DNA from: Jaapia argillacea MUCL 33604
Taxonomy: Eukaryota > Basidiomycota > Agaricomycetes > Jaapiales > Jaapiaceae
Direction: 5' to 3'
Length of the DNA: 64,000 nucleotides
NCBI GenBank assembly: GCA_000697665.1
Contig: KL197714.1
Span: 786,728 to 850,727, forward strand
Under the pieces are notes generated by a model, which worked only from the letters and a program-made list of their open reading frames with translations, did not search any database and was not told the DNA's origin. Numbering within the stretch: position 1 is the first letter of the stretch; each line of letters begins with the position of its first letter. Positions 34,264 through 58,604 of this stretch are shown piece after piece. The position numbers and the translations under genes are program-made.

Positions 34264-35537
34264 TCAACCAAACCTCCTACTCAACCCATCATAAATCAAG
34301 AAAATAATCGCACTACTTGGTATACTCCTTGCAACCGTGATCCCACAACCCGCATACAAACCTTTCAACCCCTGTTTCCTATACAACTCAACAAACGTCC
34401 CGAAAAAAGTTGGTCTTCGACTCGTCGACGACGAAGTAATTTGACCACGAGGTCGGAGTTCTTCTTCAGTTTGGATGGTTGATTTGACGGTGTCTGCCGG
34501 GAAGAGAGCTAAATTGTACATCCCTCCTGCAAATGCACCTGATAGAGCAGATTCCCAAGCGGCCAAGTCTCTCCTTTTCTTCTTCTCTATACCATCATCA
34601 CTCGTGCCAGGGGAAGATGTCGCCTCGCCAGGGTTCAAAGCTATTAAACCTCGTGCGAAAGCTTCTTTCGTAGCGAACCAAGCTGCCCCACCTCCCGTTT
34701 CTCGAATGAAAGTACCGGTTTGACCGAGCCACAGGCCTCGTATACCCGTCTGGCGGATTATGGAGGTTAGGAGGGTTATAGGGCCCGGGAGGTTGTGGGG
34801 TATTGTGGGCGATGCTGAGAGTGAGGGCGAGATGAGCATCTGGACTTGCATTTTGCATTTTATTAACTCGATTGGTGTTCTAACAATCAAAAGTGTGAGT
34901 TCAGAGGGAGAAGGAAGGGAGATGTGGGAAGACGGACAAGATGAAACTGGTTATGGCGCCTGCACCTGCACCTGCCAATGCTAATTCTGGCAATGAGAGG
35001 TCGACTTGGGTGGAGTTGTGGCGAAAAGTTCGGATTAGGTTTTGGAGTTCTCTATAGGAGAGGAAGAGGGATGCGTTTTCGGCCATTGCTCCTACTATAG
35101 GTGCTGGGAGACCCTGAAACCATGTAAATGGGAAGGATAAAAGGGAGACATAGTGTCAGCGTTTGGCATTCAATTTCGTGTGTAATAAATGGGGTAAGGA
35201 TCGAGTTGAAGGAACGCGGGGGTGTAGAAAAGTAGAATGAAGAGATGGACAGAAGACTAACGCGATATAACCCTCGAACACCTTCCTTCCTCCAAGTCTG
35301 CTCCAAACAATCAATCGGCCCACTAAACCTAGCCTTCTCATCCAACACCTGTGCTTGCAACCGGACCTTACATAGGTCGAAGGGATGTTCGAAGAATTTC
35401 GAAGCTATGCCAGCTGTAGAACCAAATGCGATGTCTTTTAGGGCGCGGCCGAATGGGGTGTCGAGGAAGGGGAGGGAGGGATGAGATGATGGGGGGTGTG
35501 GGCTGGTGATGGGGAGGGCAGCGTCTGAGAGGGACAT
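34264..35537 (-). CDS. ORT1: Mitochondrial carrier protein, ornithine carrier (ARG11/ORT1)-like
   Basis: Inner-membrane solute carrier, probably exchanging ornithine for protons and/or citrulline for arginine synthesis. Three exons in phase: exon 1 from 35537 ends GVRGLYR; exon 2 reads GLPAPIVGAMAENASLFLSY through ITSF; exon 3 begins LTPIELIKCKMQVQM and ends SSAIIFLIYDGLSRRFG at 34264. The three carrier signatures are present, one per repeat: HPFDLCKVRLQAQ, TPIELIKCKMQVQ and FPADTVKSTIQT. The second has Glu instead of Asp (P-I-E), as I recall for ARG11/ORT1 members. An insert of about 25 residues rich in Ser/Glu/Lys lies between the fifth and sixth helices' matrix segments. The second intron uses a GTCCGT donor. 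It is the last housekeeping gene before the repeat array, whose first unit begins about 40 bases upstream of its start codon. Confidence 0.85.
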
Positions 35538-35579
35538 CTTGGTGGTGAAGTTGGTAGGTGGTGGTGGGGAGAGGAAGGG

Positions 35580-36000
35580 GGGCTATTGCATGGTCGTGCG
35601 AGGGAGTTTTGAGGAGGAGCTGTAACGCTCGGATGCTGCGAAGTGCTCAGGTGGACGGAGATGAGGGAAGCAACATGATCCGTTCAAAAATGTTGGCACG
35701 TGGTTATCGCCACATGGTTCGGCTTGCGATCCCACCTCCGATCTCGACATGAGACTACAGTACTGTAAGTGTTACAGACACAACGATTGATGAATAGATG
35801 AATACAAAGCAAGATAACAGCGCCAGCAGTGTTCCACAAAGTTAGATAACATACACTCAACCACCACCACCAGAAGTCAGATCCAAGAGCCAGAAAGTTA
35901 GACAGTTCGGTCATACAGCGACAAAGCATGGGTGGAAGGACATAGTATGCGAAAGAAATAGAGCGACGTGGCGATAGAAGCCATCGAAGGAGGACGAGTG
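35580..36000. repeat. Array repeat R1, copy a
   Basis: First copy of a 0.3-0.4 kb repeat found at the downstream end of every family X gene. Shared landmarks are GCATGGTCGT, GAGGAGGAGCTGTAAC, GCGAAGTGCTCAGG, CGACATGAGACTA, GATGAATACAAAGCAAGATA, GTTAGATAACATACA and AGCGACAAAGCATGGG. Copies diverge by scattered substitutions and small indels, so the duplications are not very recent. Confidence 0.85.
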
Positions 36001-36016
36001 TGGGGACAAGATATTC

Positions 36017-37412
36017 TCATTTTTGAGATCGATGGAATCGACCCCGTGGCGAATGGATCGACGAACCTGTCGTCTGGGGGAACTGGGTTGACCGATTGTC
36101 CTGTAGGATCGTATTCATATAAAAATGTGGAAGCATAATGAAAATAACGACATACAGATGTCTTCCCCATCCCACGAGCTCGGCCATACACAGGAGGCCT
36201 TCGGTCAAACGAATTGGTGTAAGAGGATCTCGGGGTGCCCGGCAAGCGGGAATGCTGTATCGTGGACGGATGTAGATAAACTGTCGCTATTGGGATCCTG
36301 GAGGAAGCGAAGAAGGGCGGTGGCCTTACGCTATAGCGCTGTCTGGTAGGGTGAGGAGTTATTCTGAATCCTGGAGGTACGAAACTACTCCTTGGCTTCA
36401 GCGAAGAAACCTGTCGAGGAGCCGAGGGCAAGTTGTACGATGGCCTAGCCCTATCAGGAACACTTTTGATCCTAAGCAGTATTGCAGGTGGATAAGTAAC
36501 GAGTGGTGTGCATACGAAGAGCAGTCGCTCACCTTGAAGAAGTCGTTCGTACACCTAGGTGACCAGTGGTCCCAAGAGCTGGTGGAGTCAACGGGACTGT
36601 TGGGCTAACTGAGTGGTCTTGCTGGATACGTTTATGATCCAACGACGCGGGTGACCCTGGTTGAATCAAACTAGTCGAATCGAAGCTGCTTCGGCACCTC
36701 ACGCAATAGCCAAGAAATTGACTGTTTCCTCCGATATGAGAGGGGTTGGCGCTGACAAGGGTTGTGGTGTCATATTCCACGTCCGGCCATGATATCGCCG
36801 TGAGTGATGAGTGGGGAGAGTCCAAGGATAAATCATCGTCGTTCACCGAATGATGTTCTACGACTCCCTGCGACGGATCCTGCCACAGCCACATTGGGCT
36901 GGTCAGGCTGACATTCGATACATTGAAGTGTTGGGACACTCACGATTTCTCGATCGTTGTCGGAATTGTCAACTGATTCGAACTCTCTCTCCAATGCGCT
37001 CAACAACAGAGACACAAGTCCATGGGATGCTTCACCGATGAGTGCTTTTGCATGAGCGCCAATTTCACGAAGATGATAAATCGCCGCATCTCCTCGAATA
37101 CTCTCGTGGGCGACTGGCAACAAAGAATTTGAGTCAACGACGGTCAATATTAATGGACCACCTGAAACGACACAGACCTGCTGAGGGAGTTGTAACTGCG
37201 GGTGCCCTAGACGCGCTGACACTGTCGACTTGGAAAGAGTGACCACGAGGGAGTTGTGGATGTGGCGGATTAGAGGTGGGCGCGCTCAACTGTGGGGGAG
37301 AGGAAGAGGACTCGTGGGAACGTCGTGGGGTCGTTGGCTCGAGAAACCTGTGCATTTGATGGTAAAGTATTCGATAAGCTTTATGGGGCGTGGGAACGGT
37401 GAAATCTCCCAT
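36017..37412 (-). CDS. Family X protein, copy X1, 380 aa (unrecognised family)
   Basis: I do not recognise this family. The best copy shows a clean five-exon model: 37178-37412, 36944-37113, 36533-36879, 36156-36462 and 36017-36100, all GT-AG, all phases matching, 1143 bases with no internal stop. Residues 1-78 are Pro/Ser-rich (PTSNPPHPQLPRG). Residues 79-135 look helical (VAHESIRGDAAIYHLREIG, then AHAKALIGEASHGLVSLLL). Residues 136-250 are acidic then Ser/Thr-rich with a CxxC pair at about 194/197 (YCVRC). Residues 251-353 are Arg/Pro/Ser-rich, ending GRARGMGKTS, and the last exon gives DNRSTQFPQTTGSSIHSPRG. No signal peptide or membrane segment is visible. Four paralogues follow on the same strand. 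The preserved frame across exons suggests it was under selection; function unknown. Confidence 0.65.
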
Positions 37413-37462
37413 ATCGGGCACTTTTGCGCGCGCTTATGAAGATTAGTAAGCAAGAATCACTC

Positions 37463-37523
37463 ACATAAGGTTCATTGCGCTGCATGGTGCAGAGCATTGC
37501 TCTGCACACCGTGAACCTTATGT
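37463..37523. repeat. 61-bp nested inverted repeat (possible MITE or hairpin)
   Basis: The ends ACATAAGGTTCA (37463-37474) and TGAACCTTATGT (37512-37523) are perfect 12-base inverted copies. Inside them GTGCAGAGCA (37487-37496) and TGCTCTGCAC (37498-37507) form a second perfect 10-base stem with a one-base loop. A smaller CGAAG/CTTCG hairpin follows near 37550. The structure lies just upstream of X1. Confidence 0.8.
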
Positions 37524-37654
37524 ATGCCGTGGGAGACTAAGCATGCCGAAGCTCGCTTCGCGCCGTCAGTTAATTAAATAATTACTACAGTAACTTATAA
37601 CTCCCAGTCGATCACTGCCCCTCCCACCTCTCTTCATCCCTTGCCCTTCCCCCC

Positions 37655-37966
37655 CCATCCATCTTCGACCACAGTTCCCGGCGGGGAGCAGTCACTACCC
37701 TGGAGACAACTGCGATAGGGAAAGTGATACACATGCATTGTGATTTATTTCATGGCTTCACAAATCAGTTTAGGAGGATTTATGAACATGATACGACTCA
37801 GAGGGCACGTAGTCTGGTTTGGTCATGTGAGATAGAGGATGAATGGGTTAGGGATGGTGAGGATGAGAAGGGTGAGGAGAGGGAATTGAAGTTGGATGTT
37901 GAATCTGTAGATGAGAGGGGGATGAGAGCTGAGTGTTCCGGCTCCTGGACCCAGCTCGAAACATAG
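37655..37966 (+). pseudogene. Fragment 2 of the small fungal gene whose intact copy is at 51291
   Basis: Matches the middle of the intact gene: AGTGATACACATGCATTG, GAACATGATACGACTCAGAG, TCTGGTTTGGTCATGTGAG, and the acidic run GDGEDEKGEERELKLDVESV. The start and the second exon are missing. It breaks off right after the block GSWTQLET, corresponding to PGPSLKHA of the intact copy, and is followed directly by transporter sequence, so it is the left part of a chimeric duplicated unit. Confidence 0.8.
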
Positions 37967-38014
37967 GATGAGCGATCAAAATTGCGAAGATGATTATCCC
38001 GCACCTCACCGCAG

Positions 38015-38895
38015 TGCCCTTGCTGGACGAGAAAGGCGTCTCTCTGAGATTGATGGAGTCCCCTTCTCGTGGGTTATCACAACCGTGCATCGTCCCTTAT
38101 GTTTATTTGTGAACGTTAGGCGGTTTCACGCCCCGACCTGTTTAGTAGCGGGGGTCGGGCTCTTCACCGGCACGTACGATATCTTCGCGGTTGGAATCGC
38201 TGTCACTATGATCGGCTATGTATACAGCGATCAGCTCGAGTGAGTGCCGGACTCTTTTTCGGAGGGTCACCCGCTCTCTCGCGCCTTGACATATCGCCAG
38301 GAGTTTGGGATCAAGTTTAGCTCCCGTTCAGCAGCAGCTGTTTATCTCCCCCTTCTAGGGCGCCACGCCGGTCGACCAGCAATTTTTTGGTTGGCTTGCG
38401 GACAGCCTTGTTCATAAGCGAATGTATATGTATGTACATCCCTTTGTCTGTGTCCCTGCCACCGTAGGCGGGTGAAGATGGCGTCGAGCTAATCATCACC
38501 AGGATTGCCACCTTTGGGCAATCGATGTCCACATCAGGACTCGCCATGAGCATTGTGGATGTGGTTATGGTGTAGTCTGGCGTTTCGTAGTAGGTTCCCT
38601 ACCAGACGTTGCCGTCCATAAGAAGTATTAATCCGTGTAGTCGGGAGTTGGATTGGGGGTGACCTCCCGTCGAGCGCGATCATCTCCGAATTCGCTACGG
38701 TCGGCCTACGCGGTAAACTCATGATTGCCGTTTTTGCTTTCCAAGGATGGGGAAATCTCCTTGGTTGCGCTGACTGCTTACAATTGCAAGGACTCCATCA
38801 TCGGCGATAGCATGCCTGCTCTCAGCCACGTGAATTATCTATGGCATCGGTTTAGGCTGTATCCCATGCGCATTGGCCATATATTTTCCCGTGGT
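38015..38895 (+). pseudogene. PHO84-like phosphate transporter pseudogene, copy A (N-terminal half)
   Basis: Remains of a major-facilitator inorganic phosphate:proton symporter. Recognisable blocks in order: EIDGVPFSW, LVAGVGLFTGTYDIFAVGIA (first membrane helix, compare VGFFTDAYDIFAINIA), ATPVDQQFFGWLAD with KRMY (the conserved loop between helices 2 and 3), ATFGQSMSTSGLAMSIV, AIISEFATVGLRGKLMIAV followed by FAFQGWGN, and a DSIIGD block. The reading frame is broken several times and VWRF carries a stop. The copy ends after the block equivalent to helix 6, at the junction with repeat R1; the C-terminal half of the transporter is absent in all four copies. Confidence 0.82.
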
Positions 38896-39225
38896 ATGTT
38901 GCGAAGTGCTCAGGCGGACGGCGCGAAGGATGAGGGAAGCAACGCCATCTGTTCGAAAAAGTCGGCACGTTGTTAGGTTTTCGGTCTCACCTCCGATCGC
39001 GACATGAGACTGCAAGGGTAGCAGGCACAACAATTGTTGAATAGATGAATACAAGCACGATAACGGCAACAGCGGTGTTCCACGAAGTTAGATAACATAC
39101 ACTCAACCAGCAACAGTAGAGGCGAGATCCAAGGGCCAGAATGTTACAGTTCGGTGATACAGCGACAAAGCATGTACATGTATGCGAAAGAAATAGAGCG
39201 AGGCGATGAAAAGAAATCATCGAAA
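38895..39225. repeat. Array repeat R1, copy b
   Basis: Starts TGTTGCGAAGTGCTCAGG directly after the transporter remnant and shares with copy a CACCTCCGATCGCGACATGAG, the GATGAATACAAGCA stretch, GTTAGATAACATACACTCAA and AGCGACAAAGCATG. Confidence 0.85.
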
Positions 39226-39253
39226 GACGATGACTACGGAGACGCGGTAATTC

Positions 39254-40556
39254 TCATTTTGGAGATCTACGGGGGTGTCGATCGCGCGATAGCGAATGGA
39301 TCGATGAACCTGTTGTCTGGGAGGAGTGGGATGACCGATTGTCCTGAAAAATATCATTCATATAAATAGGTGAGATATTGAAAATAGCGGCATACAGATG
39401 TCTTCCCCATCCCACGAGCTCGGCCATACACAGGAGGCCTTCGGTCAAACGGACTGGTGTCAGAGGACCCTGGAGTGCCTGACGAGCGGGTATGCTGTAT
39501 CATGGACGGACGTTGATAAAATGTCGCTATTGGGATCCTGGAGGAAGCGACGGGCGGTGGCCTTACGCTATAGTGCTGTCCGGTAGGGCGAGGAGGATTT
39601 CTGTATCCCGGACGTACGAAGGTATTCCTAGGCTTCGATGAAGAAGCCTGTCGAGAAGCCGATGGCATATCGACAGGGAGGGAATTGTACGATGGAATGC
39701 CTCGATGGGGGAATCTCGTGACTCTAAGTAGTATTGCAGGCTGGTAAACAACGGGTGGTATGGATAGGAAGACCAGTCACTCACTTGGCAGGAGTCGTGG
39801 GCATACACTTGCGATCCGACGACCTGGATGACCCTGACTGAACCGAACTGGTCGAATCGAAGCTCCTCTGGCAGGCTACGCAATAGTCGAGAGATTGTTC
39901 GCTCCCTCCGATACGCACAAGGTCGGGAGAGGGGTTGCCACTGACAAGGCTTGTGGTGTCACCTTCCGTGTCCAGGTATAGAGAAGATGGGGTGGGAGAA
40001 GGCGGATATGATATCGTCGTGAGTGATGATCGGGGAGAGTCCAAGAAGAAATCATCGTCGTTCACCGAACGATGTTCTGCGACTCCATGCGATGGATCCT
40101 GCCACAGCCATATTGGGCTGGTCAGGTCGATATTCGACACATCGAAACTCCGGGACACTCACGATTTCCCGATCATTGTGGGCCTTGTCAAATGTTTTGA
40201 TCACACTCTCTAATATACCCAATGACAGAGAAGCAAATCCGCGGGATGCTTCATCGATGAGTGCTTTCGTATGAGAGCCGATTTCCCGAAGATGATAAAT
40301 CGCTGCATCTCCTCGAATACTCTCGTGGGCGACTGGCAAGAACGAATTAGAATCAACAACGGGAACTATTAATGGGCTCCTTGAAACGAGACCGACCTTT
40401 TGAGGGAGTTGTAACCACCTGTGCCCTCGACGCACTGACACAATCGGCGGAGAGACAACGAGGAAGTTGTGGATGTGGTGGGTTGGAGGTTGGCGCTCTC
40501 AGCTGTGAGCCGTGGGAATGTTGTGGCCAGACGGGTGACCTGTGCTCAGCCAACAT
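39254..40556 (-). CDS. Family X protein, copy X2
   Basis: Second copy with the same exon plan as X1. The start at 40556 gives MLAEHRSPVWPQHSHGSQL; exon 2 carries VAHESIRGDAAIYHLREIG; exon 3 carries DPSHGVAEHRSVNDDD and the CxxC pair as YCVACQRSF; exon 4 reads FPHRGIPSYNSLPVDMPSAS through GRARGMGKTS; the 51-base last intron leads to DNRSSHSSQTTGSSIHSLSR and a stop at 39254. Exon 3 has about 13 extra residues (PPSPTPSSLYLD) relative to X1. All frames are open as far as I could follow. The start differs from X1: the first exons align only from the PTSNPPHPQLPR block onward. Confidence 0.6.
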
Positions 40557-40599
40557 TCGATACGATTTCGAATGAGATATGAAAAGGCGTAGCCAGGTC

Positions 40600-41117
40600 G
40601 AGACTCGGTCTGGAACGGTCCATTGACGCAGGGTTTCGCCGACGTTCCCACGCGATCCCCTTCACTTCTCATGCATCCCTCCACGCTCAAAACACAACTA
40701 CGTAGTGATACTATCATTTCCCTACTTGTGCAAAACTTTTCATCAAATGCGTATATCACGGCAACAAACAATCCTGAGCCATTCTGGTTTGGTATACAAG
40801 TACAATGATATCTTCTCCCTTATATCCATATTTTACCTGATTTATTCATCGTGAGGAATGAGCGTCGGGCACCGACCGAGACGACGACTCTGAAATGTGG
40901 CGGCGCGCGGGATATGCAATATTTCTCCGCGCGTGACAATCCGTGACTCAAGCAGGCCAATGTCACGAAATCGTCACGCAGATTGGCAGGGAGTTTCGTC
41001 CATCCTCTATTATCAGTGCCTTCTACATCTTGCAGGGAGCCGGAGAAATTTGCATTAGTATTTAATTAGGGTGCATATTTGAATCCCAAAAGCACGAGAC
41101 GAGAGGCTGAGAGGATC
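40600..41117. other. Array spacer, left of the assembly gap
   Basis: Contains GACGCAGGGTTTCGCCGAC near 40625, also found at 45000 upstream of X3, so it belongs to the array unit. No gene is seen. Confidence 0.5.
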
Positions 41118-41500
41118 NNNNNNNNNNNNNNNNNNNNNNNNNNNNNNNNNNNNNNNNNNNNNNNNNNNNNNNNNNNNNNNNNNNNNNNNNNNNNNNNNNN
41201 NNNNNNNNNNNNNNNNNNNNNNNNNNNNNNNNNNNNNNNNNNNNNNNNNNNNNNNNNNNNNNNNNNNNNNNNNNNNNNNNNNNNNNNNNNNNNNNNNNNN
41301 NNNNNNNNNNNNNNNNNNNNNNNNNNNNNNNNNNNNNNNNNNNNNNNNNNNNNNNNNNNNNNNNNNNNNNNNNNNNNNNNNNNNNNNNNNNNNNNNNNNN
41401 NNNNNNNNNNNNNNNNNNNNNNNNNNNNNNNNNNNNNNNNNNNNNNNNNNNNNNNNNNNNNNNNNNNNNNNNNNNNNNNNNNNNNNNNNNNNNNNNNNNN
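41118..41500. other. Assembly gap (383 N)
   Basis: A run of 383 undetermined bases. Any open frames crossing it are artefacts. The true length is unknown; the gap falls inside the repeat array, where assembly is difficult. Confidence 0.99.
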
Positions 41501-42140
41501 CCCATTCTACAACCACTTCATCCTTTCATAATCGGACTTCATAATCCTATTTTTAAAGTAGGAAAATAGTCTCCTGAATTTTTGGAGAGGCATCTGATGT
41601 CTGTGGAAACCACAAATTGTGTTTTGCACATGTTGCGCGTTTTGCACAAGTAGGGAACCGATAGTACACGTACACGGAGATTCATTTACAGCGCCTTTCA
41701 TCGCTTTGCGGAAAATTTGAAATTTCGTTTTCCTTTAAGCCACAAGGAGGACCGTGAGATGAGTCCTAGGACGTCTCCCAACCATGTCCCCGAGACCAGT
41801 CCTTGACACATGTCGCCAATTTGGGCAACTGTGGCGTATCAACGCTAAATGGTACCCATTGTGAACGACGCGCTTGGTGACAAAACCATATAATTTTGGA
41901 GTGCACAGTTGGTCCCCAAGAGGCACTTCTACTGTCTGCAGTTGTGTAAACGACTCCAAAATGCTCCGGAGAGAAATTACAGTCCATTCCCGCTCTAAGA
42001 GGGTTCGGACAAACCCGACACGACACGCGAAGTCCATCAAAGGCTTGAGGCCCAGAGCTGCGGAAAAATGTCGGTCGCGGACTCAGACTCGTGAAACGGG
42101 AAAACAAGAAAACGTGGATTCCGCATACTCTTGAAAAGCG
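41501..42140. other. Unassigned sequence right of the gap
   Basis: About 640 bases that do not match the other array units and show no family resemblance on either strand. A minus-strand frame of 113 codons (41766-42107) and an overlapping one of 101 codons are open but unconvincing. It may be the end of an element whose other end lies left of the gap. Confidence 0.4.
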
Positions 42141-42149
42141 CTATAATAG

Positions 42150-42345
42150 TTTCGCACTTCAATTCAAGAGGAATTATGAACATGATACAGCTCAGAGGGC
42201 ACATACTTTGGTTTTGTTATGTGAGGCAGGGGATTGTGAGGATGAGAAGGGTGAGGAGAGGAATTGAAGTCGGAACCTGTCGATGAGAGTCAGAGCAGAG
42301 CTGTGAGTGTTCCGACTCCTGGACCGAGCTTGAAACATAGGATAA
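42150..42345 (+). pseudogene. Fragment 3 of the small fungal gene whose intact copy is at 51291
   Basis: Shares TTCAATTCAAGAGGAATTAT, ATGATACAGCTCAGAGGGCA, GGATGAGAAGGGTGAGGAGA and CTCCTGGACCGAGCTTGAAA with the intact copy. It ends at the same point as fragment 2 and passes into transporter sequence. It is shorter and more decayed than fragment 2. Confidence 0.75.
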
Positions 42346-42414
42346 GCGACCACAGTTGTCAAGATGATTATCCAGCACCTCACCCCAGATCCTTCGTTCT
42401 GAACGAGAAAAGTG

Positions 42415-43310
42415 TTCTCTGAGATTGATGGAGCCCCCTTCTCGCGGGTTATCAAAACCGCGCATCGTCCCTCACATTTATTCTTGAACGCTGAGTGGTT
42501 TCGTATTAAGATTTGCTTACTTAGTAGTAGGGGGTCGGGTTGTTCACGGACGTATACAAAATCTTCGCAGTTGGAATCAGTGTCACTGTGATCGAGTATG
42601 TATATGGAGCAGCCAGCTCGAGTGAGTGTCGGACCCTTCTTTCTTTGCCCACGAATGGTTGAGGAGAGCCACCCGCACTCTCGGCCTTGGCATCTCGCCA
42701 GGAGCTCGGAATCAAGGTTAGCTCCCTTTCTGCAGCAGCTATTCATCTCCACTGAGCCTCCTTCTAGGTGGCCACACCGGTTGAAAACCTCAGCCAGCTA
42801 TTTTTTGGTTGGCTCGCGGACGTCCTTGGTCCTAAGCGAATGCGTATGTCGGTACATGCCTTCGTCTGTGTCCCTGCCCACCGTAGGCGGGTGAAGCTAA
42901 TCAACACGAGGTCTGCCACCTTTGGGCAAGCAATGTCCACATCAGGACTCGCCATCAGCATTGTGGGTGCGGTTTATGGTGTGGTCTGGCGTTTCGTAGT
43001 AGGTTTCCTACCAATATTTCCAGCCTTAAGCCAGTATTATAATCCATGTGGATGGGAGTTCGAATTGAGAGTGACGGCCTGTTGAGCGTGATCGTCTCCT
43101 CCGAATTCACCGCGGTCGGCCTAGGTCGTAAACTCATGGTGGCCGTTTTTGCTTTCCAAGGATTGGGGAATCTCTGGTTGCGCTGGCTGCTTACAAGGAC
43201 TCCATCATCGACGACACAACGCCCGCTCTCAACCATGTGAATTATCTATGGCGCCTTGTCCTCAGTTCAGGCTGTATCCCATGTGTATTGGCTAGATACC
43301 TTCGCCTGGT
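42415..43310 (+). pseudogene. PHO84-like phosphate transporter pseudogene, copy B (N-terminal half)
   Basis: Same truncated transporter as copy A with partly better preservation: ATPVENLSQLFFGWLADVLG, KRMRM, SATFGQAMSTSGLAISIVGA followed by VYGVVWRFVVG, SSEFTAVGLGRKLMVAVFAF, DSI with NHVNYLWRLVLSSGCIPCVL (helix 6 region). Frames are broken between blocks and the first helix is poor. It stops at the same R1 junction as copy A. Confidence 0.82.
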
Positions 43311-43660
43311 ATGCTGCGAAGCGCTCAGGCGGACGACGCGAAGGATAAGGGAAGCAACCCGGTCCGTTCGAAAAAGTCGGCACGTCGTTGGGTTTTCGAT
43401 CTCACCTACGATCGCGACATAGGACTACCGTAAGTGTAGGGGGCGCGATGATGGATGAATAAATAGATACAAAGCAAGATAACGGCGACAGCGGTGTTCC
43501 ACGAGGAAGTTAGATAAAATACACACAACCAGCGGTAGTGAAGGCGAGAGCCAGAATGTTAGACAGTTTGATCATCCAGCGACAAAGCATGGGCGGATGG
43601 ATACGATGTGCGAAAGAAACGGAGCGACGTGGTGAATCGAAGTCATCGAAAGAGGACGAG
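43311..43660. repeat. Array repeat R1, copy c
   Basis: Begins TATGCTGCGAAGCGCTCAGG after the transporter remnant; shares CACCTACGATCGCGACATAG, ATACAAAGCAAGATAACGGC, GGTGTTCCACGAG and AGCGACAAAGCATGGGCGG with the other copies. Confidence 0.85.
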
Positions 43661-43679
43661 TGTCGGGACGAGGACATTC

Positions 43680-44962
43680 TCATTTTGGAGATCGACGGGG
43701 GTGTCGACCGCGTGATGACGAATGGATCGATGAACCTGTTCTCTGGGAGGAGTGGGGTGACCGATTGTCCTGAAAAATATCATTTATATAAAGAGGTGGG
43801 GACATTGAAAATAGCGACAAACAGATGTATTCCCCGTCTCACGAGCTCCACTATACCCAGGAGGCCTCCGGTTAAACGGATTGCTGTAAGAGGACCTTGG
43901 GTTGCCCGACAAGCGGGAATACTGTATCGTGGACGGATGTAGATAAGATGTCGCTATTGGGATCCTGGAGGAAGCGAAGGGCGGTGGCCTTGCACTATGG
44001 TGCTGTCCGGTAGGGCGAGGAGGATTTCTGTATCCTGGAGGTACGAAGGTATTCCTCTGCTTCAACGAATAAGCCTGTCGAGAAGCCGATGGCATATCAA
44101 CAGGAAGGGAATTGTGCGATGGAATAGCTCGATCGGGGAATCTTGTGACTCTAAGTATTATTACAGGTGGGTAAATAACGGTGGGTATGGATAGGAGGAC
44201 CAGTCACTCACTTAGCAGGAGTCGTGGGCATACGCTTGCGATCCGACGACCTGGATGACCCAGACTGAATCGAACTGGTCGAATCGAAGCTCCTCTGGCA
44301 GGCTACACAATAGTCGAGAGATTGTTCGCTCCCTCCAATACGCACAAGGTCGGGAGAGGGATTGACACTGACGAGGCTTGTGGTGTCACCTTCCGTGTCC
44401 AGGTATAGAGAAGATGGGGTGGGAGAAGGCGGATATGATATCGTCGTGAGTGATGATCGGGGAGAGTCCAAGAAGAAATCATCGTCGTTCACTGAATGAT
44501 ATTCTGCGACTCCCTGCGACGGATCCTGCCACAGCCACAGTAAGCTGGTCAGGTTGACATTCGGCGCATTGAAGTGTTGGGACACTCACGATTTCCCGAT
44601 CATTGTGAGAATTGTCAAATGTTTTGATCACATTCTCTAATATACCCAACGACAGAGAAGCAAATCTTCGGGATGCTTCACCGATGAGTGCTTTCGTATG
44701 AGCGCCAATTTCCCGAAGATGATAAGTCGCTGCATCTCCTCGAATACCATCGTGGGCGACTGGCAACAACGAGTTTCAGTCAACGACCGACAATATTAAT
44801 GAACTACTTGAAACGAAACCGACCTTCTGAGGGAGTTGTGACAACCGATGCCCTCGACGCACTGACACGATCAGCGGAGAGACAACGAGGAAGTTGTGGA
44901 TGTGGTGGATTGGAGGTTGGGTGTGAGCTGTGGGAATGTTGTGGCCCGTGCTCAGCCAGCAT
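43680..44962 (-). CDS. Family X protein, copy X3
   Basis: Third copy. The start at 44962 gives MLAEHGPQHSHSSHPTSNPP. Exon 2 carries HDGIRGDAATYHLREIGAH, exon 3 YCVACQRSF and the same PPSPTPSSLYLD insert as X2, exon 4 FPDRAIPSHNSLPVDMPSAS and a GARETGNTS end where X1 and X2 have GARxxGKTS, and the last exon DNRSPHSSQRTGSSIHSSSR with a stop at 43680. X2 and X3 are closest to each other: both share the exon 3 insert and the MLAEH start. The donor of the last intron reads GTTTGT rather than GTATGT, so use of that intron is a little less sure. Confidence 0.58.
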
Positions 44963-45034
44963 TCGATACGATTGACGCGCAGCCTGGAAGGGTCGAATGA
45001 CGCAGGGTTTCGCCGACATTTCAGCGCGATCCAT

Positions 45035-45387
45035 GTCTACCGTCCAAGTAAGTTCGGATCAATCCCCTTCTCCTTTTCAGGTAAGCGGATCGCGATATGG
45101 GAAAGACATTCGGGCTCCGCACACTTGCTCACGCGTGGGCACGGAAGTGCTTGCTCCGAACCTACTTACGATCTATGAGAGTTTGCCGACAGCCGTGGAT
45201 AGTGTGTAGATGGACTGATGCTTGCCGCCGCTACGGTGGGTTTGTGCGTTTGCTCTCTGAGTGGAACTGCTATCTTGATCATGATCATATGTGTTGTGTC
45301 AAAAGTTCAAGTACGAAGTCCTTCCCTTCCAAACATTACACTCCAGGACCCTCCATCTGCCTGAATCGAAATCGCTACCTCATCACA
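45035..45387. other. Array spacer upstream of fragment 4
   Basis: No gene. The right end (GTGTCAAAAGTTCAAGTACGA and onward) matches sequence upstream of the intact gene near 51015, showing that the 5' flank of that gene was duplicated as well. Confidence 0.55.
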
Positions 45388-45487
45388 ATGCCTCGTAATC
45401 TCTATCACTCGTCCCTATTCTCCGCGCATTGGGGCCTCTTCATCCTGTACCCCGTTTCTCTCTTGCATCCCTCCATGACCACAGTTC
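45388..45487 (+). pseudogene. Fragment 4 of the small fungal gene whose intact copy is at 51291
   Basis: Holds the start region, MPRNLYHSSLFSAHWGLFIL, equivalent to the start of the intact copy (MPRSVYLLVYHSPLFPAHWG). It breaks off after TTVQ and joins transporter sequence at once, so this unit lost the middle of the gene that fragments 2 and 3 keep. Confidence 0.8.
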
Positions 45488-46010
45488 AGGTGTCGCGTTC
45501 TCTCTGAGATCGACGGAACCCCCTTCTCGTGGGTTATCACAACCGTGTATCGCCCCTTCATATTTATGGTGAAAGTAGGTGGTTTCATATCAAGATCTAC
45601 TTAGTGGCAGGAGCTCGGGATCAAGGTTAGCTCCCATTCTGCAGCAGCTGTTTATCACCACAGAGCCTCTCCTTCTAGGTGGCCACACCGGTTGAAAATC
45701 TACTCGGCCGGCCAGTTTTCGGTTGGCTTGCGCACGTCCTTGGCCGTAAGGGAATGTATATGTCTCTACATCCCTTCATCTACCCCTGCTCACCATAGGC
45801 GGGTGAAGATGGCGTCGAGCTAATCATCACCAAGTCCGCTACGTTTGGGCAAGCAATGTCTGCCTAAGGACCCGCCATTGAGCGTTGTGGTCCGGCGTTT
45901 CATAGTAGGTTTCCTACCAAACATTGTCGTCCATGACAAGTATTGATCCATGTAGATGGAAGTTGGAATTGGGGGTGACCGCCCGTTGAGCGCGATCATC
46001 CACTGCATGG
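45488..46010 (+). pseudogene. PHO84-like phosphate transporter pseudogene, copy C (shortened)
   Basis: Keeps the EIDGTPFSW block, then passes directly to the helix 2-3 region (GGHTG at the old splice site, FGWLAHVLG); the first membrane helix is deleted. Weak traces of the later blocks follow to about 46000. It ends where repeat R1 copy d starts. More decayed than copies A and B. Confidence 0.7.
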
Positions 46011-46360
46011 TCGTACGAGGGATTTTTGAGGAGGAGCTGTAACACTTGGATGTTGCGAAGTGCTCAGGCGGACAGAGCTAAGGTTGAGGGCAGCAACATA
46101 ATTCGTTCCAAAAAGTCGGTGCGTGGATGGGCTTTCGATCCCAAGATCTCACCAGACACAACAATTGATGAATAAATGAATACAAAGCAAGATAACAGCG
46201 ACAGCGGGTTTCGACGAGTTAGATAACATACAGTACACTCAAGTAGTAGTCGTGAGGCGAGGTCCAATAGCCAGAATGTTAGACAGTTCGATCATACAGT
46301 GACAAAGCATAGGTAGAAGGACATAGTACGCGAAAGAAATAGTGCGACGTGCCGAATAGA
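46000..46360. repeat. Array repeat R1, copy d
   Basis: Begins with CTGCATGGTCGTACGAGGGA, shared with copies a and f, and continues with GATGTTGCGAAGTGCTCAGG, ATACAAAGCAAGATAACAGC, ACATACAGTACACTCAA and CAGTGACAAAGCATAGG. Copies d and e share the extra ACAGT in ACATACAGTACAC, which groups them. Confidence 0.85.
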
Positions 46361-46570
46361 CATTGACAGAGGACTGTGGTGAGGAGAAAATCCTCATTTT
46401 TGAGATCTATGGCGGGTGTCGCGTGATAGTGAATGGATGGGTGGACCTGTCGCCTGGGCTGACCGATGGTCCTGTAAGATCGTTTTGTAGGAAAAATGTG
46501 GGGGCATATGCAATATAACGACATACAGATATGTTCCCCATCCAGTGAGTTTGGCCCAGGGCACCTTCGG

Positions 46571-47700
46571 TCAAATGAATTGGTGTAAGAGGGATGCTGG
46601 GGTGCCCGTCAAGCGGGAATGTTCTATCGTGGGCGGATGTCGATAAGATGTCCCGATCGTGATCCTGGAGGGAGCGGAGGTTGGCTGCCTTACGCTATAA
46701 TGTTGTCCGGTAGGACGAGGAACGACTCCAGCGCCTGGGGGTACGACGCTATTTCTAGGCGTCAAGGAAGAAGCCCATCGGGAATCTGAGGGCGTGTTGG
46801 CGGGTGGGGAGTTGTAGGATGGCGTAGCTTGATCGGAAACGTTTACGATCCTAAGTAATATTGCAGGTGGGTTCCCGGCGAGCGGTATGGATAAGAAGTC
46901 GTTAACTCGACTAGGAGCCGTTGGCATACATGGGCGATCGTTGGTCCCAACGGACGGATTCCATGTGACCGTCGCGTTGACCGAGTGGTCTTGCTGGCTA
47001 CGCGTACCATCTGACGACCTGGATGACCCTGACTGAATCGAACAGGTCCGATTAAAACTCCTCCGGCAGGTCGCACAATAGCAAAGAGATTGACTGTTTC
47101 CCCCAATATACGCAACGTTCGTAGAGGAGTTGACACTGAAAAGCCTTGTGGTGTCATGTTCCACGTCCGGCCATGATATCGCCGTGACTGATGACCGGGG
47201 AGAATCCAGGGGTAAATCATCGTCATTCACTGTATGATGTTCTGCAACTCCTTGCGACGGATCCTGCCGCAGCCGCAGTGGGGTGGTCAGGATGATATTC
47301 GACACATCGAAGTGTTGGGATGCTCACGATCTCCCGATCATTGTCGGAATTGTCAACAGTATTGACCACTCTCCCTAATATGCCCAACAACAGGGAGGCA
47401 AATCCACGGGATGCTTTACCGATGAATGCTTTTGTGTGAGTGCCAATTTCCCGAAGATGATAAGTCGCTGCATCTCCTTGAATACTCTCGTGGGTGACTG
47501 CCAAGAACGAATTCGAGTCAACGACGGTCAATATTAATGGACTACCTGAAACGACACTCACCTGCTGAGGAAGTTGTGACTACCGATGCCCTAGACGCAC
47601 CGACACTGTCAGCTTGGAAAGAGTGACAACGAGGAGATTGTGGATGAGGCGGATTGTAGGCGGGCTCATTCAACTGTGGGGGAGCGGTTGAGCCGTGGGA
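46571..47700 (-). pseudogene. Family X, copy X4 (5'-truncated, altered C-terminus)
   Basis: Exon 2 is recognisable (THESIQGDAATYHLREIGTH), as are exon 3 (DPSQGVAEHHTVNDDDLPLD, YCATCRRSF) and exon 4 (QHYSVRQPTSAPSRITIGTS). Relative to X1-X3, one extra base just before the SLLHQF block shifts the frame, so the protein would end HQFI at 46571 and lose GRARGMGKTS and the last exon. Upstream, the first exon is open (PAYNPPHPQSPRC) but has no start codon: it is cut at about 47700 by retroelement RNase H sequence. The sequence between exons 3 and 4 is also open in frame. Probably a non-functional or altered copy. Confidence 0.65.
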
Positions 47701-47930
47701 ATCTGACATCGTCATCTACTCCGATGGATCGGGCCTCAACAACGCAATTGGCGGGGCAGCAGTTGTCTTTCAGGAGAAAGGGCGAGAATCAGGGGAGCAT
47801 CTTCAGTACTGCCTCGGTGAGGCAGATGACCACACGGTTTTTGAAGGTGAACTAGTAGGAGCAATGCTAAGTTCCACCTCATTCACAAATTTCGCACTGC
47901 CCGATCCGTTTTCATTGGCATAGATAAACA
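47700..47930 (+). mobile_element. Retroelement RNase H fragment (fossil)
   Basis: About 230 bases resembling the RNase H domain of a fungal retroelement, most like those of non-LTR (LINE, Tad-like) elements: YSDGSGLNNAIGGAAVVF carries the first catalytic Asp in its YxDGS setting, and DDHTVFEGELVGAMLS the Glu block. It is broken and no other part of the element is present. It begins exactly where X4 sequence stops and ends where repeat R1 copy e begins. Assignment to LINE rather than another retroelement class is inference. Confidence 0.7.
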
Positions 47931-47944
47931 GAGTCGGCGCTAAG

Positions 47945-48260
47945 GATGAGGGGTTGGGATTTCGATCTCACCTCCGATCGCGACATGAGACTACCGGAAG
48001 TGTATCACTGCAGAAACAATGATGGATGAATAAATAGATACAAAGCAAGATAACAGCGACAGCGGCGTTTCGACGATTTAGACAACATACAGTACACTCA
48101 ACTAGCAGTAGCGAGGCGAGATCCAATAGCCAGAATGTTAGATAGTTCGGTCATATAGCGACATAGCATGGGTGGAAGGACATAATATGCGAAAGAAATA
48201 GTGAGACGTGCCGAATAGAAAACATCGAAAGAGGACTCTGGTGACGAGAAAACTCTGATC
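47945..48260. repeat. Array repeat R1, copy e
   Basis: Lacks the first 60 or so bases of the repeat, being joined to the retroelement fragment, and starts at the block GATTTCGATCTCACCTCCGA. It shares ATACAAAGCAAGATAACAGC, CATACAGTACACTCAACTAG and GCATGGGTGGAAGGACATA with the other copies. Confidence 0.85.
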
Positions 48261-48431
48261 TATGCGGGGTGTCGCATGATAGCGAATGGATCGATGAACC
48301 TGTCGCCTGGGTTGACCGATTGTCCTGTAAGATCATTTTGTCGGAAAACTTGGGGGGAGGGGGGGCATATGAAATATAACAACATACAGATGTGTTCCTC
48401 ATCCCGCGAGCTCGGCCCAGCAGGCCTTCAG

Positions 48432-49600
48432 TCAAACGAATTGGTGTAAGAGGGATGCTGGGGTGCCTGCCAAGCGAGAATGCTCTATCGTGGGCGGATA
48501 TCGATAAGATGTCCCGATTGTGATCCTGGAAGGAGTGGATGGTGGCTGCCTGACGCTATAATGTTGTCCGGTAGTATGAGGAATGATTCTAGCTACCGGA
48601 GGTACGACGCTATTGCTAGGCGTCAAGGAAGAAGCCCGTCGAGAACCTGAGGGCATATCGACTGTTGGGGAGTTGTAGGATGGCGTTGCTTGATCGGGAA
48701 AGTTTGCGATCCTAAGTAGTATTGCAGGTGGGTTCCCAACGAGCGGTATGGATAGGATGATTGGTCACTCACCCAGGAGCCGTGGGTAGACATGGGCCAC
48801 TGGTTGTCCCAGCAGATGGAGTCAATGTGGCCGTTGGGTTGACTGAGCGGTCTTGCTGGCTATGCGCATGATCCGACGACCTGGATGACCCTGACTGAAT
48901 TGAACTGGTCCAAATAAGACTCCTCCGGCAGGTCACACAGTACGCAAGAGATTGACTATTTCCTCCGATGTGCGCAACGTTCGTAGAGGAGTTGACACCG
49001 AAAAGCCTTGTGGTGTCATGTTCCACGTCCGACCATGTTATCGCCGTGACTGATGACCGGGGGGAGTCTAAAGGTAAATCATCGTCGTTCAATGTATAAT
49101 GTTCTGCACCTCCTTGTGATGGATCCTGCGACAGCCGCAGTGGGGCGGTCAGGTTGATTTTCGACACATCGAAGTGTTGGGACGCTCACGATTTCTCGAT
49201 CATTGTCGGAATTGTCAACAGTATTGACCACTCTCCCTAAGGTGCCCAACAACAGGGAGGCAAATCCACGGGATGCTTTACCGATGAGTGATTTTGTATG
49301 AGCGCCAATTTTCCCAAGGTGATAAGTCTTCGTATCTCCTCGTAGACTCTGGTTGGCAGCTTGCAAGAACGAATTTGGGTCAACTCAACGACGATACCCG
49401 GACGACTTGAAATGACACCCACCTTCAGAAGGAGTTGTAACCACCAGTGCCCTAGATGTACTGGCACTATCAGCATGCAAGGAGTGGCGACGATGTTGTA
49501 GATGTGGCGGGTTGGAGGTGCTTGCGTTCAGTTGTGGAGAGGAGTCGTGGGAATGTTGTGGTGTCGTTGGCCAGGCCAATCGCCTTTGGTTGGGCGGCAT
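48432..49600 (-). CDS. Family X protein, copy X5 (altered C-terminus)
   Basis: Fifth copy. The start at 49600 gives MPPNQRRLAWPTTPQHSHDS. Exon 2 is more divergent (NQSLRGDTKTYHLGKIGAH); exon 3 carries DPSQGGAEHYTLNDDDLPLD and YCVTCRRSL; exon 4 MPSGSRRASSLTPSNSVVPP and SRITIGTSYRYPPTIEHSR. It shares with X4 the one-base insertion that makes the protein end HQFV, so X4 and X5 descend from one copy after that change. The old last-exon sequence (DNRSTQATGSSIHSLS) can still be seen downstream near 48300 but is out of frame. Whether the shortened protein is made is unknown. Confidence 0.5.
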
Positions 49601-49609
49601 TTTACCTCG

Positions 49610-49860
49610 GCCTGTGAGGGATCCAATAGCAAATCGAATCAGAGCGTGGGAAGATAATGAGTGCGGTCATGATCAGGTAGGTTTGATCGTTCGTCTGATT
49701 ATATAATATTACCAAAAGTAGAAATTTGTGATGGCCTGAGAACTCCCCAAGCGATTACCATGGAGGTCAATTCCCACAGACGTTCCGGGAGCCATGGTCT
49801 ATGAGCGGGTCCCGTGTTTGGGGGACCAGAGACTGAAACCGGTCCGACTCTTTCTGTTTA
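49610..49860. other. Array spacer between X5 and transporter copy D
   Basis: About 250 bases with no gene. No fragment of the small fungal gene is recognisable here, unlike the corresponding place in the other units. Confidence 0.5.
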
Positions 49861-49864
49861 CCTT

Positions 49865-50690
49865 TATGTTAAGATCTGCTACGTAGCGGGGGGACGAGGG
49901 GTCGGTTTCTTAACGGATGTATCATATCTTCGCAGTTGGAATAGCTGTCACTATGGTCGGATATGTATATGGAACCAGCTCGAGTGAGTGCCCGATTCTT
50001 TTCTCTTCCCCTGCCCACGAATGGTTGAGGAGCGTCACCCGCTCTCTCGTGCCTTAACATATCCCCAGAAGCTCAGGACCCCACCAAGGTTACCTCCCAT
50101 TCTTCAGCAGCTGTTTATCTCCCTGAGCCTCCCCTGCTAGGTGGTCACACCGGTTGAAAACGTAGTTGGCCAGCTATTTTCTGGTTGGCTCATGGACGTC
50201 CTTGTACATCCCTTTGTCTGTGTCCCTGCTCACCATAGGCGGGTGAAGATGACATCGAGTCAATCATCACCATGGCCGTCACCTTTGGCAAGCAATGTCC
50301 GGATCAGGACCCGCCACTGAGCATTGTGGGTGCGATTGTGGTCTTGCGTTTCATAGTAGGTTTCCTACCAAATGTTATCGCCCATAACAAATATTAATTC
50401 ATGTAGACGGGAGTTGGAGTTGGGGATGACCGCCCGCTGAGTGAGATCATCTCCTCCGAGTTCGCTGCGGTCGGCCTTTGTGGTAAACTCATGATGGCTG
50501 TCTTTGCTTTCGAAGGGTGGGGAAATCTCTTTGGTTGTGCTGACTACTTACATGGACTTCATCATTAGCGACACAATGCCTACTCTCAACCACGTGGTCC
50601 GTACAGTATATGGCGCCTGGTCATTGGGTTGGACTGTATTCCATCCGCATCCGCCATATATAGTGGGAGAGGAAAGGGAGTATTGCATGG
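49865..50690 (+). pseudogene. PHO84-like phosphate transporter pseudogene, copy D (N-terminal half)
   Basis: Traces in order: helix 1 region around 49900-49980 (FAVGIAVTMVGYVYG after allowing frame breaks), VTPVENVVGQLFSGWL around 50140, FGKQCPDQ near 50290, and a region equivalent to SSEFAAVGLCGKLMMAVFAF near 50457. Several frame breaks and small deletions. It ends before the short R1 copy f, like its relatives. Confidence 0.75.
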
Positions 50691-50760
50691 TCGTGCGAGG
50701 GATTTTTGAGGAGGAGCTGTAACGCTTGGACGCTGCAAAGTGTTCATTCGGACGGAGCTG
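50690..50760. repeat. Array repeat R1, copy f (start only)
   Basis: Only the first 70 bases remain: GCATGGTCGTGCGAGGGA, GAGGAGGAGCTGTAACGCTT and CTGCAAAGTG with GGACGGAGCTGAGG. The sequence then departs from the other copies. No family X gene follows, so this marks the right edge of the array. Confidence 0.8.
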
Positions 50761-51290
50761 AGGAAATATGAATCCCTTCACCGAGCCACGAACTTGAACC
50801 CCGTTGGGCACTCTGGAATCTCAGCTGTGTCTGCTGTCCTCTATCCCATTTTGCGTTTCGTACCAAACGCCTCATACTTTTCATTCCAACATTTCAAGGG
50901 CTCACTTTGAGCGAACGATCAGTTCCTACGCTGATTGGTTGAGCAGGGGCTTCAGACTTCGAGAGCACGTCGGTTGGAATGCGAAATTCAGGTTATCTGA
51001 ACTGGCTGTATGCCTTGTCAAAGTTCAAGTACGAATTTTGATACTTGTGTTGGCATCCCCTCAATAAACTCACTTCGGAACAGCGTAAATCTCAGTCCTC
51101 TGCAGACGTTAATCGAGATCTCCGGACCTCGGTCTCACAACGGCGCAAAATGGCCTGCTCAAGCGCCCACGAACACCCATCCAAGGCGCTTGTTTAGAGT
51201 TCGTTGATCCCGGTCACCAGCCCTTCCCTTAAGAACATCAAACAGAAGGATCCTCCTGCCTTCCTCTGAATCGGAACCGCAACCCTCACA
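50761..51290. other. 5' flank of the intact small fungal gene
   Basis: About 530 bases. The part around 51015-51060 and 51230-51290 is related to sequence upstream of fragment 4. It should contain the promoter of the gene at 51291. No TATA box is obvious. Confidence 0.5.
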
Positions 51291-51888
51291 ATGCCTCGTA
51301 GTGTCTACCTCCTCGTCTATCACTCACCCTTATTCCCCGCACATTGGGGCCTCTTCATCCCTTACCCCGTTTCCCTCTTGCATCCCTCCACGGCCACAGT
51401 TCCCGATGACGAGGGGTCACCCTCTCAAAAGACAGCGATCGGGAAAGTGATACATGTACATGGCGATTCGTTCAATGGCTTCGCACATCAATTCAAGAGG
51501 AATTATGAACATGATACGACTCAGAGGGCACATAGTTTGGTTTGGTTGTGTGAGGTAGGGGATGAATGGGTTGGGGATGGGGAGGACGAGAAGGGTGACG
51601 AGAGGGAATTGAAGTTGGATGTTGAGCCTGTCGACGAAATTGAGAGGAGAGCTTTGAGTGTTCCGGCTCCTGGACCGAGCTTGAAACATGCGGGGAATCT
51701 AGGAGGGGTGCGTTATTCGTTAATTCTTGCTTGTGTTTGGGGTGTTGACTGAGTTTCGGTCCTAGGGAAAGAAAGTGGAGATCAAGAATTGTCAGACTTG
51801 GCTTCGTGATTTTGTGCAAGTTTTGGTCGAAGAAGGTATATTTCCGAGTTCGGCTCTCGCTGCTTTGGATGCTGCTCCGAAGAATTGA
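51291..51888 (+). CDS. Small conserved fungal protein (DUF6914-like, tentative), 179 aa
   Basis: Exons 51291-51707 and 51766-51888 join in phase over a 58-base intron. The protein begins MPRSVYLLVYHSPLFPAHWG, continues HVHGDSFNGFAHQFKRNY, an acidic stretch (VGDGEDEKGDERELKLDV), PAPGPSLKHAGN, and ends in VEIKNCQTWLRDFVQVLVEE and GIFPSSALAALDAAPKN. This N-terminal motif plus KNCQTW tail is a pattern I recall from uncharacterised fungal proteins; the DUF number is from memory and unverified. No signal peptide is expected. It is the only intact copy; three partial copies lie in the array to the left, so it is the likely source, or the survivor, of the duplicated segment. Confidence 0.72.
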
Positions 51889-57317: not shown

Positions 57318-58604
57318 GGGTGATAGTGATTGAGTATTTAGGGTTGGTGATTGGAGTGACGACGTTTGGACGATCGGTCATTCGTTTTGGTTACTGACTT
57401 TACGAACTTTGTTTGGACTTTCTGAGACTCTTTTGATACCATGTATGTTACGACTGTTGTGTGTAGACTTTAATGACGACTGAGAACGGACACCCCGTAG
57501 TAGTACTTAGTACGAGTGATGTTAACTTCCTAGGGCTTACGGTTGGGATCTTGGCGCGGATGTACTTAGTGCAGTTCTTCTGCGATTCGACACCTGTTCC
57601 CTCTAGAGACTCGCACCCATCGGCAAAGTGCTACCAGGTGATGCTGTGGCATGTGCATTTGCCGTGAAACCCCGACATAAAATCCCGAGAGGTATTCCGA
57701 CGTTGTTCCCTCTCTCATCCACTTACCATTACCACGGAACTCCATCTCTCCCTGCACTTCTCTTGCCCAAGCGAGCGGCTGCGACGTTTCATGGCCAGTG
57801 GCTCTCTTGGTGACTTCAAGTTAACACGGCCTCGTCGATGGACGATTACCAAATAACGATCAGTGAGGCCGTTCAATCCGGTTTGATGATACTCGATCCT
57901 TGCGTATCTTGTGGCGTTGTGTCACGCACGCCGAGAGTATGAAGAACCAGTACCAGAGTAAATCAGGTCTCTGCAAGGCTCCCAGCATTTGTGCAGGCAG
58001 TACTTAGCTGAAGCCTCGTTATCGTTGTGGCTGAACTTTGATGCACTGCCAACGCCACGATCAAACAGGAACGTACCTGTCCTAATGCAGTCATCATGGG
58101 CGCCCTCCGCCTTTCCCATCCACGATCCTGATGATCCCCATACAGCCCGAACAGTGTTGATGTTGATGATTTGCTCCAGTGCACAGCTTCGAAATCCTCC
58201 TGGATCACGCATTCCTTTGCAACACGATTTGAACACTAGTGCTTCGCCAAGCGTCGATACGCGTTATCTATCCAATTGACTTGGTACGTACGTTCCATGC
58301 CTCATCCTGATTGGACATTTTTTTTATGAACCAAGATTTTGTGATGTGCCTCGCTTTGGGCATGCACCGTAGCGAAGCTTCCAAGCTTCTGGGCGCAATC
58401 ATGCATTCTGAGTGGATGGCGATGCAATGGGCGTTCGACTTTTTGGGACTTGTCCATTCCAGGACAAGATGAAGCCCGAAACTTTATACCTTGACCTTCC
58501 ACCCAGTCCTTGCCGTTTATATAGGCAGAAGGAAACTTTGTGGTTGTCAGGCTCGACGTTCCCCCCTCATTTTCCTTCTGTGCCTCCAGTCTCCAGGTTC
58601 GGTC
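57318..58604. other. Region between GH16-B and GH16-C
   Basis: About 1.3 kb with no supported gene. The right end contains a TATA-like box for GH16-C. A minus-strand frame of 104 codons at 57922-58236 is open but resembles nothing. Confidence 0.45.
58516..58525 (+). promoter_or_regulatory. TATA-like box of GH16-C
   Basis: TTTATATAGG lies 80-89 bases upstream of the GH16-C start codon, a suitable distance for a fungal TATA element. A pyrimidine-rich stretch (58556-58595) between it and the ATG is a likely transcription start region. Assignment rests on sequence and distance only. Confidence 0.45.

Follow-up and report, generated by a model that had tools for sequence, protein, structure and literature searches.

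The stretch from 35,567 to 51,689 of the 64,000-nucleotide window is a tandem array with a piece-to-piece identity of 70-87%, and it probably originated when a host segment, blk-X-sg', was duplicated in tandem with a templated insertion of a transporter piece, T', and was then amplified, gene X being kept by selection. The array copies had one single orientation throughout, and array-internal BLAST comparisons gave E-values down to 0.0, far beyond chance. Chance or an assembly artefact as the source was ruled out, because the copies are 13-30% divergent and the flanks contain gene families. Amplification appears to have led to about six units, at positions A to F. In unit A, blk-X directly adjoined a mitochondrial carrier gene, and both sg' and T' were absent in front of it; unit D had the order sg'-T'-X with internal deletions, unit E was X without the other pieces, and unit F was T'-blk followed by the intact small gene sg, with X gone. 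The first-pass annotation had described one chimeric unit recurring in the same order and orientation; the parts, their order and their orientation are real, but the full sg'-T'-X series was found only in units B and C. The repeat R1 of that annotation was taken here as the 3' flank of X.

The two ends of the array were informative about the native locus. On the left lies the carrier gene (mtC, 34264-35537, minus strand, start codon at 35537), with Pfam Mito_carr matches in the open reading frames at 34267-34890 and 35055-35537. The block upstream of it, blk (35567-35650), forms the native boundary of the duplicated segment on its left side, and by sequence match it recurs in shortened form in unit D (46004-46060) and again in unit F, where 50665-50766 comprises blk and an R1 stub with 87.4% identity to 35567-35669, X itself being lost. 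On the right lies the intact sg (51291-51888, plus strand), whose hand-spliced two-exon product matched DUF6540 (PF20174) in Pfam with E=4e-30 and 105 bits, against a curated cut-off of 27; the breakpoint falls after 51689. Three sg' fragments were found on the plus strand: B (37630-37964; 80.6% identity to 51351-51689), C (42145-42338; 79.6% to intact sg) and D (45317-45487; 75.3% to 51219-51402), the last being a 5' part that includes 72 bp of sequence preceding the sg start. The edges of the duplication, 35567 and 51689, are constant, the host segment repeats in direct orientation, and the sequence just outside is non-recurring: mtC sequence left of blk had no array match at E<=0.1, apart from the 27-bp overlap of the query itself with the target, and nothing similar to sg sequence past 51689 was found elsewhere in the array at the same threshold.

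On the left, mtC passes into blk-X of unit A without a break, and on the right sg is whole. From these two ends we infer a native order of mtC(-), blk, X(-) and sg(+), in which X and sg appear to be native neighbours between the carrier gene and intact sg, so that the duplicated segment would be blk, X and the first part of sg, and only T' would be foreign. This departs from the proposal that three unrelated gene pieces were joined as a chimeric unit and subsequently amplified. The series sg'-T'-X in units B and C is exactly what such a joining would leave, and yet at the array ends blk-X and sg are continuous with intact flanking genes, and the blk of units D and F corresponds to the sequence upstream of the carrier gene on the left, which makes the proposal very unlikely; of the four parts T' alone looks ectopic, and the other three look native. 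Since X has been lost from unit F, X beside an intact sg is seen in no undamaged copy. Among the units, the X-sg intergenic region was almost unalignable, the only homology found being 45288-45317 against 51009-51035, which was equalled by 1 of 200 shuffles.

The nearest source of T' in the genome is the 5' half of a gene on contig C3 (1661622 to about 1662684), which is still in place and apparently full-length. The product of this donor, hand-spliced to 520 residues, matched Sugar_tr with E=6.9e-49 over residues 46-513 (Pfam Sugar_tr/MFS); we take it to be PHO84-like, the name given in the first-pass annotation, and its phosphate specificity is putative. The T' fragments, all on the plus strand, were found in units B (37965-38890; 83.2% identity to the C3 gene), C (42339-43310; 80.9%), D (45499-46000; with internal deletions, 83.6% over 505 aligned bases) and F (49898-50661; 5' part missing, 81.2%). 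They thus occupy four of the five seams between the unit positions and neither of the two native ends, where no match to T' was detected at E<=0.1; at the fifth seam, between D and E, a retroelement relic stands instead of sg'-T'. All donor introns but one are kept in T', indicating that it is a DNA copy and ruling out a retrocopy origin. A 78-bp deletion between TCTCT repeats, which takes the missing intron and some exon sequence, is common to the fragments of B, C and F and absent from the C3 gene, so these three derive from one founder. The lost intron is probably ancestral, because the protein matches of paralogues on C3 and C12 are interrupted at the same place, in the way expected of an intron.

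Junctions had been claimed to be identical in each unit. That between sg' and T' was the same in B and C, two of the three units with both pieces, but unit D is deleted across it; the transporter end was constant within about 10 bp in B, C and F, but was cut shorter in D. The junction of T' with X was not constant: before 'GCGAAGTGCTCAGG', A, D and F have additional blk sequence of up to about 80 bp (less in D), the greater part of it being absent from B and C. The shared junctions, together with the common 78-bp deletion, nevertheless bore out the suggestion of a single founding rearrangement followed by tandem amplification.

In T', copy-to-copy identity was 77.8-81.8%, compared with 80.9-83.6% to the C3 gene, and the tree was near star-like with weak internal support (63), which fits a capture shortly before amplification. 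The tree cannot order capture and duplication, and this leaves room for a rather unlikely origin in two steps, in which X-sg' was duplicated by ordinary end joining or unequal exchange, T' was caught afterwards where the first seam had broken, and amplification followed. The final anatomy would be identical. Two independent accidents at one point would however be needed, and T' fills the space between the sg and blk edges, leaving room for no more than a few filler bases; both speak against this origin, and capture and duplication would more probably have been one event, presumably by replicative template switching. Microhomology at the switch points, judged by eye on alignments of junctions that are eroded, did not exceed 2-3 bp.

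Under this single-event origin, the native locus mtC(-)-blk-X(-)-sg(+) would have been under replication or break repair when synthesis departed from sg close to where the first exon of that gene ends. About 1.06 kb of the PHO84-like gene, from 3 bp before its ATG, would then have been copied from the C3 gene or its ancestor, before synthesis switched back to blk, upstream of X, and went through X and sg a second time. This would have left blk-X-sg' duplicated in direct tandem, with T' filling the seam, and unequal exchange would then have raised the unit number to about six. Later, sg' and T' would have decayed, X would have been lost from the last unit, and repeats and a retroelement relic would have landed in the array, while selection on X kept its copies open.

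This anatomy resembles known systems. A donor in place, an insert confined to seams and direct repeats with constant edges are features that it shares with templated insertions and FoSTeS/MMBIR. As in the cycles of templated insertions described by PCAWG (PMC7025897), a host segment is re-replicated in tandem with a copy of a distant locus in between and the donor in place; those are described as somatic events in human cancer, whereas the array is fixed in an assembled genome, old, and amplified to about six units. It also resembles yeast MMIR (Payen et al. 2008, PMC2518615), in which template switching gives tandem segmental duplications with chimeric ORFs at the seams. In the yeast replication-based duplications as described there, however, the seams join two sites directly via repeats, microhomology or low-complexity DNA, whereas here a third-locus piece of about 1 kb lies between the joined sites. 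Human FoSTeS/MMBIR clustered copy-number variants (PMC6258378) likewise contain, at their junctions, inserts that were copied from other places and show little microhomology, although the inserts of stated size are of 8-52 bases, against about 1 kb here. Templated-insertion events in these sources were described from tumours (PMC7025897) and human patients (PMC6258378). The mechanism is already known, and the array is a clear old example; it would be an old and fixed case of templated insertion in a fungal genome, with its steps still readable. A literature search without the organism name found nothing on this locus. The array is most likely what remains of an accident of copying, not a designed three-part unit, and illustrates that a seemingly designed chimeric unit can come from one such accident.

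Gene X lies on the minus strand in five copies: A (35640-37355 with its R1 3' flank), B (38896-40567 with R1), C (43311-44973 with R1), D (46050-47701) and E (47952-49571). Copy A has coding exons at 37178-37355, 36944-37113, 36533-36879 and 35898-36471, with 422 amino acids open. In unit F, no match to X of A, D or E was found past the R1 stub within 50767-51218. X was open over most of its length in all five copies, with B, C and E stopping short of the end of A, and in D an open frame of 250 amino acids takes in exon 3, what used to be intron 3, and a portion of exon 4. The core contained no in-frame stops in A, B, C and D and one in E, compared with 2.3-3.3 expected per copy under neutral simulation, and in none of 3000 simulations were A to D all free of stops. 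Indels in the core exons were all multiples of 3, except for one +1/-5 pair common to D and E. In T', 24 of 36 exon indels relative to the C3 gene were not multiples of 3 (19 of 31 without five truncations), indels common to several copies being counted more than once.

The X copies are 13-26% apart, and the event is therefore old. Their pairwise dN/dS was 0.48-0.61, below the neutral simulation (P<0.05) in 7 of 10 pairs. As proof of selection this ratio alone was set aside as too weak: neutral medians were 0.74-0.78 with a transition bias of 4, although a lower bias, as counted at X noncoding sites in four pairs, would raise the neutral dN/dS, and the broken T' pairs, at 0.51-0.74, share part of the X range. 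Protein-level constraint on X is therefore weak. Open frames and indel lengths are the better evidence, and by these X seems to be the only gene kept alive, its copies held open by selection; X is presumably expressed and useful. In agreement, X had been singled out as the part that stayed open, and four of the five copies are stop-free in the core, whereas sg' and T' are evidently decaying. With broken passengers beside an open gene, the array is a natural setting in which to compare neutral decay with selection. A bolder version, which we regard as doubtful, is that one template-switching accident gave at the same time the extra X and a fusion joining the first exon of sg in frame to the transporter start codon, and that selection on a fast-changing orphan X kept the array open over a very long period while the passengers rotted; if true, each passenger would act as an internal neutral clock, recording how old a tandem array is and how it turns over.

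Relatives of X are present on contig C4, and neither sg nor T' accompanied them in the 50 kb compared. This goes part of the way towards an outcome that the first-pass annotation had named as refuting its proposal, and X therefore forms a small family of its own that did not arise from the chimera. Copy A had no Pfam match at E<=1, and a C4 relative gave mono-CXXC at E=0.018, under the cut-off. The single-sequence AlphaFold model of the 250-amino-acid frame of copy D had a mean pLDDT of 33, so no statement on the fold is made. A search of X against a phage collection, of little value here, returned no match.

The occurrence of X on another contig, and of interspersed repeats and a retroelement relic in the array, could suggest that X is the gene of a mobile element which carried captured host fragments along as it spread. 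This is most improbable: exon 2 of X was found at at least 10 places in the genome among the matches listed, all in two clusters, and all array copies share a single orientation. Moreover, the interspersed repeats sit between units and appear more recent than them, being up to 95-100% identical to the best of their other copies. One of them (40709-41666) encloses the assembly gap at 41118-41500; a second (41684-42150) abuts sg' of unit C and is 92-95% identical to copies on C1 (two), C28 and C50, weaker copies existing too. The relic, at the expected sg'-T' site of the D/E seam (47708-47869, plus strand), is RNase H-like (Pfam RNase_H E=0.14, below the cut-off), with at least four relatives in the genome among the matches listed (best E 6.9e-8). 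Extra units concealed in the assembly gap are unlikely, because the gap lies inside a repeat whose collinear flanks are 57-67 bp apart in six other copies; it probably hides about 60 bp and not a unit.

Finally, singleton substitutions in T' were C>T 33, T>C 32, G>A 28 and A>G 27. RIP/MIP-type mutation was unsupported, as C>T was without strong excess and GC was about 51% outside the gap. C>T or G>A changes affected 18 of 150 CpG sites and 43 of 674 other C/G sites, indicating that CpG sites were about twice as mutable.

Self-comparison of the window (C6:786728-850727, in a genome of 43.7 Mb whose gene style points to a probable basidiomycete) revealed a tandem array spanning 35,567-51,689. 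Its left neighbour is mtC, a mitochondrial carrier gene on the minus strand that starts at 35537; an immediately upstream block of about 80 bp (blk) leads from it into copy A of the orphan gene X. This is followed, from left to right, by a small-gene fragment (sg'), a transporter fragment (T') and X copy B; two interspersed repeats with an assembly gap; sg', T' and X copy C; sg', T', blk and X copy D, a unit that deletions have shortened; the relic of a retroelement; X copy E; T' and blk of unit F; and the intact small gene, sg. Further copies of the block separate T' from the X side at 46004, where blk is shortened, and at 50665. The first-pass annotation was mostly right in what it observed and partly right in its interpretation. 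Self-comparison and alignments bore out the fixed orientation that it reported, with X always on the minus strand and sg' and T' always on the plus strand. The constant order was found in B and C (sg'-T'-X) and in D, with blk before X, but not in A, which lacks sg' and T', in E, which is X alone, or in F, which has no X.

The sg gene at the right end is complete and encodes a DUF6540 protein (Pfam); PMC10318531 counts DUF6540 as one of the papain-like families that have a CHH triad. At E ≤ 0.1, the later part of sg had no match elsewhere in the array, the mtC sequence beyond blk did not recur in it, except for the query's own 27-bp overlap, and T' had no match at either native end. These results indicate that the repeated segment is blk-X-sg', with T' at the seams between copies. 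Instead of the three unrelated gene pieces proposed earlier, the unit would thus comprise one native segment, which looks like it was cut from a single contiguous locus, and one captured filler. This anatomy equals the definition of a templated-insertion cycle in PMC7025897, in which several copied segments form a string that leads back to the host chromosome, where a host segment is replicated again. In such a cycle, the transporter piece from contig C3 would have been captured as filler at a seam and the native blk-X-sg' re-replicated; T' may also have been captured later, at the first seam, and the final anatomy would be identical. The nearest experimental model for the array comes from PMC2518615: segmental duplications in yeast that arise by template switching and carry chimeric ORFs at their seams. 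Events of this kind are already known, and the array is of moderate interest as an old, amplified, still readable case.

T' matched the 5' half of a PHO84-like gene on C3 (1661622 to about 1662684); spliced by hand, the product of that gene carries Sugar_tr over residues 46-513 of 520. T' starts 3 bp before the ATG of this gene and ends after the sixth helix, as numbered in the first-pass annotation. All introns of the C3 gene but one are present in T'; the 78 bp between TCTCT repeats that hold this intron are missing from B, C and F alike, and D is deleted there. The match is likewise interrupted here in the transporter paralogs on C3 and C12, so the deletion is probably derived and would mark a single founder. 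Outside T', the only array match of the C3 gene was a weak one of 33 bp (E=0.023), taken as chance. In B and C, reading continues in frame from sg' into T', which has a one-in-three chance, and frameshifts before or after the junction break both copies today. Four PHO84-like genes were found, at C3:1661622-1669209 and 1710577-1712653 and at C12:251373-253181, two of them neighbours on C3; C74 and other parts of C12 gave weaker matches.

T' copies were 77.8-81.8% identical to one another and 80.9-83.6% to C3, and their tree was near a star (internal support 63; T' branches 0.09-0.15, C3 branch 0.08). The X copies were 74.2-86.6% identical, and their tree grouped B with C and D with E (support 100 each), leaving A apart; most of blk is likewise missing from both B and C. 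These divergences, groupings and common loss indicate that the array is old, with at least one second round of copying. Between copies B and C, X windows around 39.8-40.1 kb were 95-97% identical, as against 79-92% in the other windows of X, which may mark a conversion tract.

In copy A (422 aa) and in c4a (396 aa), a relative on contig C4, X is split into four exons by GT-AG introns. Copy A had no Pfam match and is Ser- and Pro-rich (15.4% and 11.6%). Over a common core (285-315 codons compared), A-D and c4a contain no stop, E one and the second C4 relative, c4b, two. Neutral simulation, with the root and two internal branch lengths set approximately, predicted 2.3-3.3 stops per array copy, and A-D were all stop-free in 0/3000 runs. 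Core exon indels in the 10 pairs were multiples of three, except for a +1/-5 pair dividing D and E from A, B and C (6/10 pairs); in T' exons, 24 of 36 indels were not (19/31 without five truncations). The retained frames suggest that the array persisted through selection on X, in line with the earlier proposal that the amplification may have been kept for X. At the protein level, however, constraint is weak judging from dN/dS, which was 0.48-0.61 in all 10 X pairs (in 7 of them lower than neutral simulation gives, P<0.05), a range overlapping that of the six T' pairs (0.51-0.74; interval reaching 1 in five). In copy D (46571-47323), the donor site of intron 3 is lost, and the intron, now 60 bases without a stop, reads through in frame and appears to have become coding sequence.

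X exon 2 had at least 10 matches across the genome (E ≤ 0.1), five in the array and five in a C4 cluster, and the 50 kb of C4 that were compared matched the array in X only. This cluster (C4:579053-595387) holds two X relatives, 83% identical to each other, one with two core stops, together with a duplicated block of three X-like genes that are more distant.

Both sides of the assembly gap matched the same interspersed repeat. In six other copies with both flanks found, these lie 57-67 bp apart, so the 383 N probably replace some 60 bp, and a hidden unit need not be assumed. Several contigs carry close copies of the two interspersed repeats at 40709-42150, with identity reaching 100% at C10:909465-909873, and the repeats are probably recently active elements. 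The relic at 47708-47869 is an RNase H-like retroelement fragment with relatives on C13, C30, C40 and C56. To the right of the array, self-comparison showed related genes in tandem at 52731-59265 (short matches of 58-81 bp, 73-81% identity), which resemble GH16-type secreted glycosidases.
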